Source of the DNA: Lytechinus variegatus
Lineage: Eukaryota > Echinodermata > Echinoidea > Temnopleuroida > Toxopneustidae
Assembly: GCF_018143015.1 (NCBI RefSeq)
Contig: NC_054746.1
Coordinates: 37,946,687-38,010,686, forward strand
DNA: 64,000 nt
Direction of reading: 5' to 3'
The translations under genes and the position numbers were made by a program. The notes under the pieces were generated by a model. The model searched no databases. It was not told the DNA's origin and was given only the letters and a program-made list of their open reading frames with translations. Below, piece after piece: positions 11,630 to 55,659 of the stretch; position 1 is the stretch's first letter; every line of letters starts with the position of its first letter.

Positions 11630-20779
<9,150 letters not shown>

Positions 20780-26903: not shown

Positions 26904-27268
26904 GCAGGCACGCGGCCAATTAGAAAGTCCAACCACTTCCTTTATGACTGATATTTGTTTTCAACTTTATACCTGTAATCAGGGGCGTCGATCTAATATT
27001 TCAGATTGGAGGCAAAATCATAAAATCGACGTTCCAAAGGCGCTCGATCACACAAAAAAAAAACTCACGCCCACACACATAGGCCTATATATATGACTCA
27101 TGAGAAAGAGACACATATCTCACTAACAAATTAATGCGAGCGCGAAGCGAGAGCCGAAATTTTTTAGTGTACTGACCTGAAGTAGGAGAAAAGTACCTGT
27201 TTATAATTAACTGTTTGTAATGACTCATTACTACACTGATAATGCGAGTGCCAAGAACGAGCTGAAAT

Positions 27269-29875
27269 CAGGCGCGTACGCAAGGGGGGGGGGTTTAGGG
27301 GGTTCAAACCCCCTTTTTTTTTTTCTTTTTTTTTTTTGCTTGTCTCCCCAGAGGTCGGTCTGGTCAAGGAGTTATCGGGCAAGCGCCTGATAACTCCTTG
27401 GTCTGGTTACGGACAGTTCCCCTACCCAATAATGTATATGACAGCAATAATGAACAGAATCTCATGTTTCCGACGAAAAACACAGAAAAAATATCCGCTC
27501 GCTTCGCTCGCTCCATTTTATTATATCTTTTATTTCCGCATGTCGCCGAAATGATCACGGTATCGCCATTAACAAGGCCATACATGATTATCATGATGTA
27601 TACTTATGAATACAAGTGAACCAAGAAAAAGACATACGTTTTCTTACAAAATATGTTTTACCAATATGAAAACCAAAATGACGGAAAACGCTAAAATGTC
27701 GGTTAGCTCGCTCCGCTCGCTCGTAATAATTTATGAAATTCCATAAGTATCTATTCTCCTGTTCATGCAAGGCCGTATAGTGTTACGAATAGAAGGACAT
27801 GTAGCATCGACTAATACTTGATTTACTAACAAACTATTGACAAGAAATGTATGTTTTGACGGGAAAACGCGAAAATTTCGGCTCGCTCACTCCGCTCGCT
27901 CGTAATCATTTATAAAATTTCTTAAGTTTCTAGTCTCTTGATCAAGGCCATATCATGAGACTTACGAGCAGAAGGACATGTATCATCAACTAATATGTAA
28001 TCATTACCAACAAGCTATTGAGAAGAATTGTATGTTTTGACGGAAAAACGCAAACATTTCGGCTCGCTCGCTCCGCTCGCTCCGCTCGCTCGTAATTATT
28101 CATGATATTTCTCAATTTTCTAGTGTTCTGATCAAGGCCATATCATGAGTGCCACGATCCGAAGGACATGTAGCATCGACTATGATACCCAGGCGCGTAC
28201 GCAGGATTTTTGAAAGGGGGGGGGGTTTCGAGCTGATTTTTTTTTTTAATCTCCCGCCCAGTCTCTAAAAAGTGATGAGCGGGGGGGGGGGAGGTGATGA
28301 TTTTTTTTCTTTTTTTTCAGAGCTGCAAATAAGAGAATAACATTTAAGTGGGGATGGGGTATGTAACAGTGCGGTCATGACCCGCGAGCGAGCAGAAATG
28401 TTCTCGTTTTTGCGTTGAAAACATAACCTTTTTCCTTTTTGTCAATAGTTTGTTGGTATCATAGTCGATGCTACATGTCCTTCGGATCGTAGCACTCATG
28501 ATATAGCCTTGATCAGAACACTAGAAACTTGAGAAATGTCATGAATAATTACGAGCGAGCGGAGCGAGCGAGCCGAAATGTTTGCGTTTTTCCGTCAAAA
28601 CATACAATTCTTCTCAATAGCTTGTTGGTAATGATTACATATTAGTTGATGATACATGTCCTTCTGCTCATAAGTCTCATGATATGGCCTTGATCAAGAG
28701 ACTAGAACCTTAAGAAATTTCATAAATGATTACGAGCGAGCGGAGTGAGCGAGCCGAAATTTTCGCGTTTTCCCGTCAAAACATATATTTCTTGTCAATA
28801 GTTTGTTAGTAAATCAAGTATTAGTCGATGCTACATGTCCTTCTATTCGTAACACTCATAATACGGCCTTGCATGAACAGGAGAATAGATACTTATGGAA
28901 TTTCATAAATTATTACGAGCGAGCGGAGCGAGCTAACCGACATTTTAGCGTTTTCCGTCGTTTTGGTTTTCATATTGGTAAAACATATTTTGTAAGAAAA
29001 CGTATGTCTTTGTCTTGGTTCACTTGTATTCATAAGTATACATCATGATAATCATGTATGGCCTTGTTAATGGCGATACCGTGATCATGTCGGCGACATG
29101 CGGAAATAAAAGATATAATAAAATGGAGCGAGCAAAGCGAGCGGATATTTTTTCTGTGTTTTTCGTCGGAAACATGAGATTCTGTTCATTATTGCTGTCA
29201 TATACATTATTGGGTAGGGGAACTGTCCGTAACCAGACCAAGGAGTTATCAGGCGCTTGCCCAAACTCCTTGACCAGACCGACCTCTGGGGAGACAAGCA
29301 AAAAAAAAAAAAAAAAAAAAAGGGGGTTTGAACCCCCTAAACCCCCCCCCCTTGCGTACGCGCCTGATTTCAGCTCGTTCTTGGCACTCGCATTATCAGT
29401 GTAGTAATGAGTCATTACAAACAGTTAATTATAAACAGGTACTTTTCTCCTACTTCAGGTCAGTACACTAAAAAATTTCGGCTCTCGCTTCGCGCTCGCA
29501 TTAATTTGTTAGTGAGATATGTGTCTCTTTCTCATGAGTCATATAGGGGGGGTTTGAAGCCCCTAACCCCCCCCCTTGCGTACGCGCCTGATGATACCAA
29601 CAAAATGACTATTGACAAAAAGGTTATGTTTTCAACGCAAAAACGAGAACATTTCTGCTCGCTCTCGGCGCGGGTCATGACCGCACTGTTACATACTCCA
29701 TCCCCACTTAAATGTTATTGTCTTATTTGCAGCGCTGAAAAAAAAGAAAAAAAATCATCACCCTCCCCCCCCCCCCGCTCATCACTTTTTAGAGACTGGG
29801 CGGGAGATTTAAAAAAAAATCAGCTCGAAACCCCCGGGCCCCCCCCCCCTTTCAAAAATCCTGCGTACGCGCCTG
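27269..29875 (-). mobile_element. hAT-like element 'Y1', inserted in X and itself interrupted
   Basis: Its own sequence is 27269-28189 plus 29599-29875. Both ends are CAGGCGCGTACGCA in inverted orientation. The flanking octamers GCTGAAAT (27261) and GCAGAAAT (29876) agree at 7 of 8, and the unbroken X copy at 52.65 kb lacks the insert. It contains repeats about 180 bases long, each carrying a CGCTCGCTCCGCTCGC-type block. The ends are rich in G or C runs. No transposase. It is split by a second copy of the same family at ATGATACC. Confidence 0.85.
28190..29590 (+). mobile_element. hAT-like composite element 'Y2', inserted in Y1
   Basis: Starts CAGGCGCGTACGCAGG, ends CTTGCGTACGCGCCTG, and is flanked by a perfect 8-base duplication ATGATACC (28182-28189 and 29591-29598). 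It lies inverted relative to Y1, so 28455-29541 and 27093-28189 form near-identical arms of about 1.1 kb. An internal copy of the family's right end lies at 29366. The bases after it (29367-29541) are an exact inverted copy of X sequence at 27093-27268, followed by a 48-base stub of the terminal end. It therefore carries captured X sequence. It has no protein-coding gene; open frames over it are translations of repeats. Confidence 0.88.
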
Positions 29876-30398
29876 GCAGAAATTGTTGTATATTCTGACC
29901 TGAAAGCTTAATATCAGTTCGAGCATTTTCGGTACCAATGATTAAGATGGGTATCTAAAGAACAATAGATGCGAGTGCGAAACGCACGAGCTGAAAATCA
30001 TCCTAATGGACGTTTTTGATAAAGAACAATATATATAATCCTATCCAATAAACCATTATTGCATAATTATTCAAGCGGGAGTTCTTTTGAGGTTTATTTT
30101 ATTCACCTATTATATCATGAAAAGTGTGTGTTTTTGCTAGTATAAGACATGCAAGATGCGAGCTGAAAGTTTTTTATCTTCTTTTCTAAAAAGCGGTCAT
30201 TTTAAGCACGATTTTAAATAAAGAACGAGTTGTGTATATACCTCATACAATCTCGCTTGCCAATTTCTGTGTATGTACATCACAATCTTATTTTATTTTA
30301 TGCACATCCGGAATTTTGGGGGCAAAACGATATGCCCCCCCCCCATATTTACATTGGTGGGGCGATCGCCTCCCCCCCCCCCCCCATCGACGCCTCTT

Positions 30399-31193
30399 CC
30401 TGTACTTTTTTTAAAAATTTGTTTTGCATACATGAAAGGAATACATGCAAAAGCCCCTCAAGCAAACCACAAACAAGATATAGGCCCGGGGAACATTCGG
30501 AACAATTCGAATTTGAGAGCCTTGGGATTTTATTGTTCCTCTTAGTATGCTTGCAGTCATATACCCTATTAGTTATAGGCTAGTTGGGATTTTTTATGTT
30601 ACAATTTTAAAGATTTTTTCCTCATTTGAATCTCGAATCCCGAATCTCCCGCTTTCAAATTTGAAGTGAAAAAATAACTTCTTTGGTAAAGTAAACTAAA
30701 AGAGAAAAGGGATTATACACGAAAAAAACAACTTAGTATACTTGTCTGGTCCTGTAACTCTGATAACATCTCATTTTTTATCTTATAATTTATTTCATGT
30801 TGGATATTGAGACAACACTGAAGCCACTGCACTGGCCTGAACGGATTTGTGATCACGGACCACTGATCTCTATCACGGACACCCCTGTTTTCTTATTTTT
30901 TCCTTACCTTAAACTTTACTCCACCATACTTTATTTTATTGTCTCGATCTCGTTGACAATCTCGTACATATACAGCAGCGATGAATTCTCGAATCTCGTA
31001 ACGACATGTAAACAACAACCGCTAGCTTTGCCCCTGGACAATGCACTCGCACAATTGCCAATGTCAATTCCACCATTTTTCTTTCTTTTCACAGTATGAA
31101 GGTATGTCAGGTAAAAGCTAGGATCAAGTACAGACATGTTTTGAATACTAAGTAACAAGTAGATCTATAAATTGACTTTCGAAAGAGAACAGC
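30399..31193. promoter_or_regulatory. Upstream region of the vasohibin gene
   Basis: No separate gene is seen. A pyrimidine-rich run ending ttcacag at about 31093 could be the acceptor of a 5' untranslated exon that runs into the coding start at 31194. No TATA or CCAAT box was convincing. Confidence 0.3.
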
Positions 31194-48118: not shown

Positions 48119-50241
48119 TTAATCTTTCTCGTCCTGGCTGGATGACGGGTCATCTCCTTTTGTTTTACGTTTTTTGTAAGTACCAATCGTCTTTGCAAAG
48201 ACATTCAGCATCTTGTCATTATTTTCTCTATGTTCCCGCTCATGCTGGACAAGATCATAATCACATTCAAGCTTTACTCCACAATAACGACATATATGAA
48301 GCTGTTTTGCGTGATTACGCTCGTGGCGCCTCAAGTGAACTTTGAGATGAAAGACTTCATTACAGAATCGACAGTGATGATCCTTGTCTGTTCGATGGCT
48401 TCTTTCGTGATTTTTTAGGGAAATGTTCTGATCAAACTCCTTGTAGCAAGTAGAGCATTGGAAGGTAGCACGACTAGCGAGATTGTCTCTTTTTGTCTTG
48501 GTCTTATTATTTGTTTTTGATTGATTCCCTTGATGATGCAGTGATTCTTCAGATTCGAATACATTCTCACTTTGAGGGATGGCAATGGCGGCATTCAAAG
48601 AGACAAATTGTGATTGTATCTGTCGTACACCTAAACCCGGACTGGGTAGACCCATGCTGCTGTTGTTGTTTGCTTCCCATGAAGGAGAAACATCAGATTG
48701 AGGTGAGTGTAGTCCTTGACCGGGGGACGTTGTTGAAAAAGACACAGGCACATCGGTGCTATTGTTTAGAGTTGCTTCGTGTTCAGTAAACCTTTGCTGG
48801 TCATTTAACAAGTCTACAAATGAGAAAGTGCGGTCATTGTGCTGGAATCCGCCGAATGATCATTAGGCGAAAGTTCAGTGATATGCATGTGTGAGCTGGG
48901 GAAAGGATCTTGGAATGATATTGTACTTGTCGGCCTTGTCAAAGGAAAACCAGAGAGTGATGATTGTAAGGGGTTTTGCGGAGAAGTTGGTGACTGATTA
49001 TATGGGTGTAGATGCCTATCATCTTTGGGCGTGAATTGAAAAGCTTTAAGTGGTGCATCCATATTGACTGGGAATACATGTAAAGAGGGTGGGGACATTC
49101 GTAATGTGGAAAAATTCAATACAGTTGTCGGAGACACATTTGAAGAGGGACCTGTCATTTTCGGAGATAGATGTATAGGGGGTACACTAGACTTGTTGAC
49201 AGTGATATCTCCAGGAATCATTGTTTGTTGTGCATATGACGATTGTTTCCTGAATATATCACTTGGGGTAGGATTGAGAAATGATGGGGAAGACACCTTT
49301 GCAAGAGGTGGCGATTGCGATTTGGCGATGTTCTCTGTTTGCATATACGAAGATGGTCTATTAACACCAGTAGGTGATGGCCCAGTACTTGGCATGGGAA
49401 CAGCAAACAGCAATTCTGGCAGTGACGGTTGTACAAAAGTCAATGGACTTTCAACAGGTGAAGCGTCGGAATAACATGACGTTTGTAAACCATGGTAGTC
49501 TCGTGATGTCTTATGACGCTTGTGGCTTCCGGTCGTTTTACTTTCATTTTCAGAGGTTGGAATACGGTTGCTTTTGTCAGTTGGGGAATGAATGTCACCT
49601 GAAAAGGGGACGACAAATCGTATCGGCCTTATAGGCGGTGACAATGGGCTTTCTAGCACAGAGCATTGGGGAAGCGATTGATGATTGATGATAGATATTG
49701 GAGAGTCCATGTTTAAGGTAAAAGCTGGATTTTTAAGTGTGGCTGAACTGGCGACCGTTTCCTTGCTATCGCAAGGAAGATTTAACATCACAGGGCGTTG
49801 TTTTCGGATATCTGATGATTCGTCATTATCCAGCCTTGGTATCTGTTGCTTTGGTAAAGAACTTACCGTCAGGTTTGTGGCCGCCGATATCATAAAAGTA
49901 GCCGGCAGCATTTGACTTTGTTGTTCTTGAGGATGTGGCATATTTGATGATTTGAAAAATCTCGGTCCATCTTCTTTTTCCGGTTCATGGCCTGTAGAGA
50001 CAATTGCCTTCAATGTATTTCTCGCATGATGTTGCGATTTTTGTAGTTCATTTGTTTTAATCATACCACGATGATAATTCGAATTAATTTCATTAGTCTG
50101 ATTAAGCCCCTCCTTATTGTCAATACAAGTGGGTGAACTAACTGTCAGATTAACATCCACAGTGAGGTTCCTAGGTTGAACCGCATTGATTGAGTTTGGT
50201 GCTTCATTGACAGTTTTCGTTTCACTATCCTGAGATGACAT
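48119..50241 (-). CDS. C2H2 zinc-finger protein, probable two-exon model
   Basis: Two minus-strand frames appear to be one gene. The upstream one starts at ATG 50241 (MSSQDSETK) and runs 475 residues to a TAG at 48816-48814; it is rich in Ser, Pro and Asn and has no domain. The downstream one ends at 48119 and carries three fingers (C-x2-C-x12-H-x3-H), CSTC/CRFC/CRYC with HERSH/HERNH/HEREH, then a basic tail. The upstream stop lies in a good acceptor (ctttctcatttgtag). A donor at ACAA|gtacaa (48926) would remove 113 bases and join the frames in phase, giving about 669 residues. A 1-base indel is the alternative. An acceptor-like ttttacag near 50298 suggests an earlier exon. Likely a nuclear DNA-binding protein; family unrecognised. 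Confidence 0.65.
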
Positions 50242-52323: not shown

Positions 52324-53128
52324 CAGGGGCGTCGATCCATTTTCCAGATGGGGGGGGCAAAATCATGAATCAGCGTTCCAAAGGCGCTCGATCACACAAA
52401 ACAAACAAGCAGACACACTCACCCACACACACACACACGCATATAGGCATGTTTATCTATATACACATAAACACACACACACACACTCAAATGTAATATA
52501 TGACTCATGAGAAAGAAATGCATTTCACCAACAAATTAATGCGAGCGCGAAGCGCGAGCTGAAAATTTTTTAGTATACTAACCTAAGAAAACAGAAAAAT
52601 GGTACCTGGTTAGGACTGTTTGTAGTGACCCATTACACAGATAATGCGAGTGCCGAGAGTGAGCTCAAGTTTCTTTATAATCTGACCTGCAAAGCTTGAT
52701 ATTTTAAGCATTTTTGGTACCAATGATTAAGATGGGTAACTAAAAATGACAATAGATGCGAACGCAAAGCGCGCGAGCTGAAAATTTTGAAATTTCGATC
52801 TGAAAAATTTACAGTTTAATGGACGTTTTTAACAAAGAACAAGATTTATATCCAATAAACGATTGCTGAAAATCGGAGCGGGAGTTCTCTTGAGGTTTAG
52901 AACTGAAAACTGGACATTCTATTCACCTATTTAGTCATGAAATGTATGGGTTTTTGCTAAAAAAAAATGATGCGGGTGCGAAGCGCGAGCTAAACATTTT
53001 TATATTCCAATCTGGAAAAAGTCATTTCGAGCACTTCCGGAATTATTGGGGGCAAAACGATATGTTCACCCCTCCAATATTGCCCCCCCCCCCCCCTCCC
53101 TCGCCGGCCGGCCTGATCGACGCTTCTG
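52324..53128 (+). mobile_element. hAT-like element X, unbroken copy
   Basis: Starts CAGGGGCGTCGATCC and ends GATCGACGCTTCTG, flanked by a perfect CTTCTCTT on both sides (52316-52323, 53129-53136). The 805 bases contain a CA repeat (52420-52485) and three GCGAG..CGAAGCGCGAGCT-type blocks, but no coding gene. It is the uninterrupted counterpart of the copy at 26980-30398 and shows where Y1 inserted there (between GAGCT and the stretch before AATCTGACCTG, near 52665). Confidence 0.9.
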
Positions 53129-54839: not shown

Positions 54840-55040
54840 TTTTCAAAGGGCGCGCTCTTACTGCCTCGATCGCGCGCGCCGATACCGTTTTCGTAGCATG
54901 CAGCTAGCTAGCAGCTAGCTCGGATATCGCCACACGAAAATATCCCCGGGAAATACCCATCGATACATTTACCACAATATTTACTTTATAAGACTCGATG
55001 TCTTGATCTGAACGACACTGGGAATATATAGAAGATCAAT
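54840..55040 (+). promoter_or_regulatory. Probable promoter / 5' region of the acetyl-CoA synthetase gene
   Basis: Locally CpG-rich (GGGCGCGCTC, GATCGCGCGCGCCG) in an otherwise AT-rich region. It has AGCTAGCTAGCAGCTAGCT repeats at 54902-54920 and lies directly before the start codon. A TATA-like GGAATATATAG lies at 55021, perhaps too close to the ATG to act as the TATA box. Confidence 0.4.
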
Positions 55041-55461
55041 ATGGCAGCAACATACAGATCAAGCTTGAAAAGGCTTAATCAGTTAGGAAATGCTGTAAAT
55101 TCATTTAATAACACTGCGATTCGAAGCTCCGTTGTCTGTTCTTTCCGGTGGACCATGAGGAGTCCAAGCAGCCTGAACTTCAGGGGACCTGATGTAAGAT
55201 CGTTCCGCTCTACAGCAGCTGTTCGTGCGATGCAAGTTTCATCAACTAACATCCCAGAACTGAACGATTTTGAAGCGCTGGGTTATTCTTTTGATTCACA
55301 CGAAGAATTGTATAAGTTTTCTCTTAATGAGCCAGAGACCTTCTGGGGAACTCTAGCAAGGACTAGGTTGCAGTGGTACAGAAAGTTTGATGAAGTGATG
55401 GACTGCAATCTTCAAGAGGGTAAAATTGCTTGGTTTCAAGGAGGCAAAATAAACGTATCAG
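55041..55461 (+). CDS. ACSS1: Acetyl-CoA synthetase, mitochondrial-type (first coding exon only)
   Basis: ACSS enzymes make acetyl-CoA from acetate, ATP and CoA. This exon encodes 140 residues. The first 50 contain no Asp or Glu and many Arg and Ser, as in a mitochondrial targeting peptide. After residue 75 the protein follows the N-terminal domain of ACSS1: LYKFSLNEPETFWGTLARTR, then LQWYRKFDEVMD, LQEGKIAWFQGGKINVS. The exon ends at a GT donor (gtaaat) in phase 1. The AMP-binding and catalytic domains are encoded downstream; I found no further exon up to 64000, so the first intron would be at least 8.5 kb. The start is the only ATG that includes the targeting region. Confidence 0.88.
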
Positions 55462-55659
55462 GTAAATATATAAATCTTCAGTTCCATGTAGAGTGTCTAT
55501 GTTACAGGTTTAAAATTGTGTTTCTTTGTGCGTGACTTTTCGTTGCATTTTTGTTTAATTTTTTGTTTGTTTGGTTTTTGTGTTTAACTTAATTCATCCA
55601 ATTAAATCAAAGGTTGCATACGGTACTGCCACTATGACATATGTAGGACCTTCACTGCA

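Follow-up and report, generated by a model that had tools for sequence, protein, structure and literature searches.

A hAT-like insertion in Lytechinus variegatus contains a piece of the locus in which it is nested, probably acquired by repair from an inverted copy

Introduction

In P-element gap repair, which can use ectopic templates, and in the abortive gap repair of Ac/Ds, copying that follows a break at or within an element is interrupted and ended by joining. Both are experimental systems; the case reported here is a natural one, and its template is nested. The short terminal inverted repeats of hAT elements typically start with CAGG. In the maize double Ds, an element is inserted backwards in one of its own kind, as occurs at the sea urchin locus described below (element Y2 within element Y1); to our knowledge the double Ds, unlike Y2, holds no captured host piece.

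The filling of gaps in animal hAT elements with nearby DNA has already been described (Tan et al., 2021; PMC8277862). Among the Pack-TIRs attributed there to gap filling, hAT elements predominate (208 of 370) and most are single-copy; the filler came from within 15 kb in 56.9% of 281 cases, and the joins, with a median microhomology of 2 bp, keep the terminal structure. Nested Ds elements have also been described (PMC3260210). A limited search of the gap-repair literature turned up no hAT copy said to have been mended from the one in which it nests, and a search for sea urchin hAT MITEs returned nothing on sea urchin, only work on Drosophila. Here we analyze a locus of Lytechinus variegatus in which a known repair process appears to have used such a template, the inverted nested copy being the unusual part.

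Results

Three hAT-type insertions are nested in the window

The stretch of DNA analyzed (64 kb; hereafter the window) is a piece of contig C7 of the 870-Mb, 33-contig genome of Lytechinus variegatus. Exon-like frames of animal-like genes lie at 429-761, 19335-19691, 48119-48859 and 55032-55535; they comprise two cytochrome P450 pieces, of which the first falls below the Pfam cut-off, together with a C2H2 zinc finger and the N-terminus of an acetyl-CoA synthetase.

Three hAT-type insertions are nested in the window, with Y1 within the outer element X and Y2 inverted within Y1 (Table 1). This architecture, first proposed from the letters alone (the sequence-only reading), was borne out by the termini and by the octamer target duplications, which agree in 7 of 8 positions for X and Y1 and in all 8 for Y2, whose octamers had correctly been read as identical on both sides. 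The full family unit of Y2 ends where it had been placed, and the captured X piece is indeed free of differences; its length, however, is 179 bases and not about 175, and the terminal stub, for which 48 bases had been given, measures 45.

The element X is itself a repeat with many copies, and presents the 8-bp duplications and inverted ends of a hAT element. Its right terminus departs from the left by 3 mismatches in 14, and that of a related copy at 52 kb, which is devoid of Y, by 2 in 14; the 8-bp duplication of this second copy is perfect (8/8), the octamers of both copies having been read by eye from the sequence. Both ends of Y1 and Y2 correspond to CAGGCGCGTACGCA, with short terminal inverted repeats of the hAT type. 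Allowing up to three mismatches, this motif has six matches in the window versus 0.56 expected by chance, and the exact matches (n = 5) stand, every one, at an element end. The inverted arms of the locus measure 402 bases (99% identity), 304 bases (99%) and 246 bases (100%).

Table 1. Coordinates of the nested elements and of the tracts discussed in the text (positions of the window; TSD, target duplication)
Feature	Position	Strand	Remarks
X, outer hAT-like element holding Y1	26980..30398	+	octamers CCTGTAAT (26972-26979) and CCTGTACT (30399-30406), 7/8
Y1, left arm (921 bases)	27269..28189	+	TSD GCTGAAAT, 27261-27268
Y1, right part (277 bases)	29599..29875	+	TSD GCAGAAAT, 29876-29883
Y2 composite, backwards in Y1	28190..29590	-	TSD ATGATACC, 28182-28189 and 29591-29598
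Full Y unit in Y2 (1177 bases)	28190..29366	-	
Captured X piece in Y2	29367..29545	-	reverse complement of 27268-27090, 179/179 identical
Y left-end stub in Y2 (45 bases)	29546..29590	-	
Putative donor tract: X 27090-27268 followed by Y1 from position 1 to ~505	27090..27773	+	change point; shared markers at Y 225, 486 and 492
Putative copied tract in Y2 (inner edge approximate)	28866..29545	-	
Related copy of X that lacks Y; empty site for Y1	52324..53128	+	CTTCTCTT on either side

Y is a non-autonomous hAT family

The genome contains 731 candidate places for Y, of which 40 were scored, and the exact 26-base word from the right end of Y occurs at 312 places. Y1 and Y2 were compared with a panel of 31 other copies, which excludes L001, L002 and L009 (in the window), L004 and L007 (the same copies as L018 and L010) and L005 and L008 (matches below 1000 bases). 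In this panel, the octamers are perfect as printed for 26 copies, agree in 7/8 for one and are unscored for four, in which the match fell short of the left end.

Y is a non-autonomous hAT family, and DNA homologous to Y 53-1177 forms the 3′ part of two inverted elements from contig C9 (L072 and L077; C9:24100000-24110500), whose right ends are about 1.2 kb apart. In the left element, the frame adjoining this homology matches Dimer_Tnp_hAT (E 1.6e-4; 21.8 bits, with a cut-off of 21.4) and the frame upstream matches DUF4371 (E 1.4e-27); the coding end of the right element is the same. The left termini of these elements were not located within the stretch examined, and a search of solved structures with the transposase piece gave 0 matches. 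This transposase-bearing pair is probably a close relative of the parent of Y, and Y probably arose via internal deletion of an element of this kind, with the junction near Y 45-53.

The stub in Y2 ends at this putative deletion junction (Y 45-53). Likewise, a Y copy from contig C1 (L073, C1:33101391-33102533) keeps Y 1-45 and has lost positions ~46-95, a rearrangement whose left breakpoint coincides with that of the stub. Computed folding of the Y left end as single-stranded DNA predicts a hairpin of -10.2 to -13.1 kcal/mol (z of -2.5 to -3.1), which makes this end a plausible weak spot.

Internally, Y contains about 2.8 diverged tandem copies of a unit of ~180 bases with GCTCGCTCCGCTCGCTC-like motifs (window 27679-28182 and 28462-28956). 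The motif CAAGGCCATATC is the site of an interruption in certain Y copies (L005, L008 and L069-L071; C17:30151599, C5:9902201, C4:2706795, C9:9384300), which falls at Y 686 or Y 867, equivalent places of the ~180-base repeat; the inserted DNA starts with CAGGCGCGTAGCCAGGGGGG in L005 and L008 (two printed junctions), and L069 and L071 show a nearly alike match pattern. Additionally, two copies lying ~117 kb apart (L015 and L019; C2:34744284 and C2:34861436) each have ACTACTAC, within an ACT repeat, as their flanks, with 7 unique substitutions in common, so that they are probably a segmental duplication.

The captured piece and its junctions are restricted to this locus

Matches of 100% to the X piece were found at two places of the genome, both of them at this locus, and all other scored matches (40 scored of 1675 candidates) are of 82% or less. 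The X-Y junction, sought genome-wide with up to three mismatches, occurs only at the two places of this locus, and the stub-X junction, with up to two mismatches in the 870 Mb, occurs once. Y2 contains, therefore, a piece of its own X locus that is absent elsewhere in the assembly. Since both junctions and the X matches are local, donor and recipient are this locus or its allele, from which the X piece derives; the donor sequence in X is ~2 kb from the captured piece.

The search of the genome for other copies of the composite, as the sequence-only reading had advised, found none, and the composite is without spread in this assembly. The single stub-X junction and the low identity (≤82%) of the other scored matches to the X piece rule out an established dispersed composite. 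Three loci with a few X bases beside Y (L069-L071) were considered as a possible sister X-Y locus, but none of the three has an X match adjoining Y, and the flank sequence of L069 is a look-alike motif.

The left end in the stub reads G9, TT and C7, unlike that of Y1, which reads G10, TTT and C5. The sequence at the join is GGCC(TA)4TGAC on the X side and C7(TA)2TGAC in the product, so that the overlap is a single T or, supposing the loss of two TA units, CC; either overlap fits with end joining.

The sequence-only reading had proposed that a break in Y2 was repaired by copying the adjacent Y1, running on into X and rejoining at the remaining end. This is the best account of the locus and we consider it probable. 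Its main rival is local macrotransposition: a Y end would once have been present in X at position 27090 of the sister chromatid or allele, and the transposase, acting on this end and the far end of Y1, would have moved the stub, the X piece and Y1 as a single block, which landed in the other copy's Y1. Such an event accounts for the target duplication, the X piece, the stub and the changes shared by Y1 and Y2 (see below), and macrotransposons with Ac/Ds ends are known (PMC3260210). However, it requires a third element shrunk to 45 bases, neither a Y end nor a second element flanking the donor X was found at X 27090 in this assembly, and other stub-X junctions are absent from it. Together with the uneven distribution of changes described below, this makes macrotransposition unlikely.

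Changes shared by Y1 and Y2 are on the X side

Three changes are common to Y1 and Y2 and are found in 0 of the 31 other copies: 225A, 486T and a CATG insertion near 492. Searched genome-wide, 225A within its exact 24-base context turned up in Y1 and Y2 alone, and so did the CATG haplotype when one mismatch was tolerated, compared with the 312 places of the right-end word; the CATG result rules out a Y subfamily that carries this insertion. Only 4 of 528 copy pairs, Y1-Y2 among them, have at least two unique substitutions in common. Besides, Y1 and the inner unit of Y2 are identical over the first 54 bases, a part of Y that is highly variable across the family. This left end was seen in 0 of the 27 other copies whose extracted sequence covered it; the stub has a different haplotype, in support of the repair reading. 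The shared markers and the common left-end haplotype indicate that Y, to at least position 492, has a common local history in the two elements.

In disagreement with the sequence-only reading, which had the Y arms differing at only a few sites, 21 events private to Y1 or Y2 were counted outside homopolymer runs. They were compiled by hand from alignments, Y 495-510 being read and entered as a shared 4-base insertion plus a 4-base deletion private to Y1; the event test omits the homopolymer runs at Y 16-25, 41-68 (including T/C at Y 57), 1068-1100, 1130-1142 and 1148-1166. These 21 events separate the arms and argue against an artefact of assembly or library (a fold-back or chimeric join), of which large inverted arms are typical. 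The structure is also bounded by element termini, where the target duplications are perfect, and what separates the arms is a Y right end, not a fold-back loop; we consider an artefact extremely improbable.

All three shared markers lie within the 492 bases nearest X, and the remaining ~700 bases contain private changes only. A split at Y 500 leaves 5 private and 3 shared events on its left side, against 16 private and no shared ones on its right; for split points picked post hoc, with the data already seen, this gives a Fisher p = 0.028 (0.042 if the split is set at 560); a one-sided test allowing any split places a change point near Y 505 (p = 0.015). In a test from the X end, also chosen post hoc, the X piece plus the first 104 bases of Y (246 usable sites) contain no private event (p = 0.011; 0.042 for the X piece alone), and the respective values for substitutions only are 0.031 and 0.089. 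The 5 private events in the proposed tract all lie at Y 105-500; if the tract was copied in a single event, this spread is mildly uneven (about 0.09, hand estimate). Y1 and Y2 have, respectively, 5 and 6 own substitutions in Y 501-1060 (other copies: mean 3.3, range 0-11), and 4 and 5 in Y 105-500, two of them shared (other copies: mean 2.8, range 0-8).

The change 1043C is present in Y2 and in two other places of the genome, and is missing from Y1. We set it aside as support for descent of the right half of Y2 from a different, recognisable lineage because the combination 1043C+1057T and a 7-base insertion are confined to Y2, no other copy having been found with this multi-site haplotype of its right half; chance recurrence among more than 300 Y copies would explain 1043C.

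The distribution of shared and private changes favours the copying of X and ~500 bases of Y1 into a Y2 that was already inserted, consistent with the repair reading, by which shared changes occur only on the copied side. The evidence that Y2 is a mosaic from copying after insertion is moderate and comes from few events: p values of ~0.01-0.09 with 21 events favour the later capture of X. Macrotransposition predicts instead even sharing and divergence along Y and X, contrary to the change-point and Fisher tests, although private sites by themselves speak only weakly against it. The composite could also have formed otherwise, with gene conversion from one inverted copy to the other later evening out its X-side arms. 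Arms that lie inverted at a distance of 1 kb are well suited to conversion, which would likewise yield a clean tract next to X along with a patchwork of shared markers; nevertheless, a separate event is still required for X and the stub in Y2, an extra step that adds no explanation, and we find this scenario quite improbable.

Discussion

We favour, as stated above, the repair of Y2 from Y1. An ordinary Y element, Y2, would first have inserted backwards into Y1 and later suffered a break near its left end, next to the G/C hairpin and the C/T run at Y 16-68, that left the 45-base stub on one side. The opposite broken end, trimmed to beyond Y ~492, may then have paired with the arm of Y1 that is homologous to it, inverted and ~1 kb off, and been extended outward by copying Y1 through its left terminus and into X, from 27268 to 27090, where the copied strand would have been released and end-joined to the stub with an overlap of 1-2 bases. 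Overall, the process would amount to synthesis-dependent gap repair from a template that is both ectopic and nested; the break could be due to the transposase or to the fragile run, and the copying to strand invasion or to replication template switching, no direct trace of the break or of its cause being left at the locus. The orientation and order of Y2 are those expected if its end was extended along the left arm of Y1, and this route would explain the direction, the orientation, the single copy and the clean target duplication.

Like the gap-filled Pack-TIRs of Tan et al. (PMC8277862), Y2 is single-copy and has its parental sequence nearby. However, in the cases described there the filler is non-TE DNA that entered by microhomology, whereas that of Y2 is part of an older transposon, X, and its template was seemingly entered where a copy of the same element, lying inverted, offered long homology. 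Also in contrast to those Pack-TIRs, Y2 misses nothing and acquires a second left end. A hAT element with donor-site DNA inside its target duplication has a parallel in a Ds that has a 598-bp inverted repeat next to it (PMC1978519), although in this Ds, as described, the extra DNA is outside the element end, whereas in Y2 it is between the inner left end and the terminal stub.

The composite insertions of Ac/Ds are a further parallel, and suggest that Y2 might stem from transposition during replication, with re-replication of Y1 and its flank. As presented in PMC4270019, they also comprise an element and its flank in one insertion within a single 8-bp target duplication, joined by microhomology as in end joining. 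Nonetheless, these composites have kilobases of flank from both parental elements, joined mid-way, and Y2 has one short flank and a 45-base terminal stub; on timing, re-replication makes the same prediction as macrotransposition. We therefore regard this origin as very unlikely.

Since the process was already described, the surprise is moderate: the locus is a clean, datable case of a known repair accident and does not represent a new type of element. A broader, rather doubtful idea is that a non-autonomous hAT nested backwards in its own kind would work as a self-templating capture device, in which nesting feeds the capture of flanking DNA and adds transposon ends; a break in the inner copy would prime on the outer arm and pull host DNA into a two-ended unit that could move. 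What makes the locus valuable is that the donor, the direction, a tract of ~0.7 kb, the join and the likely order of events can be read at one place, with markers found only in the two arms. For the hAT elements, it suggests that flanking DNA can enter an element with both termini kept, and that a nested inverted copy can act as the template.
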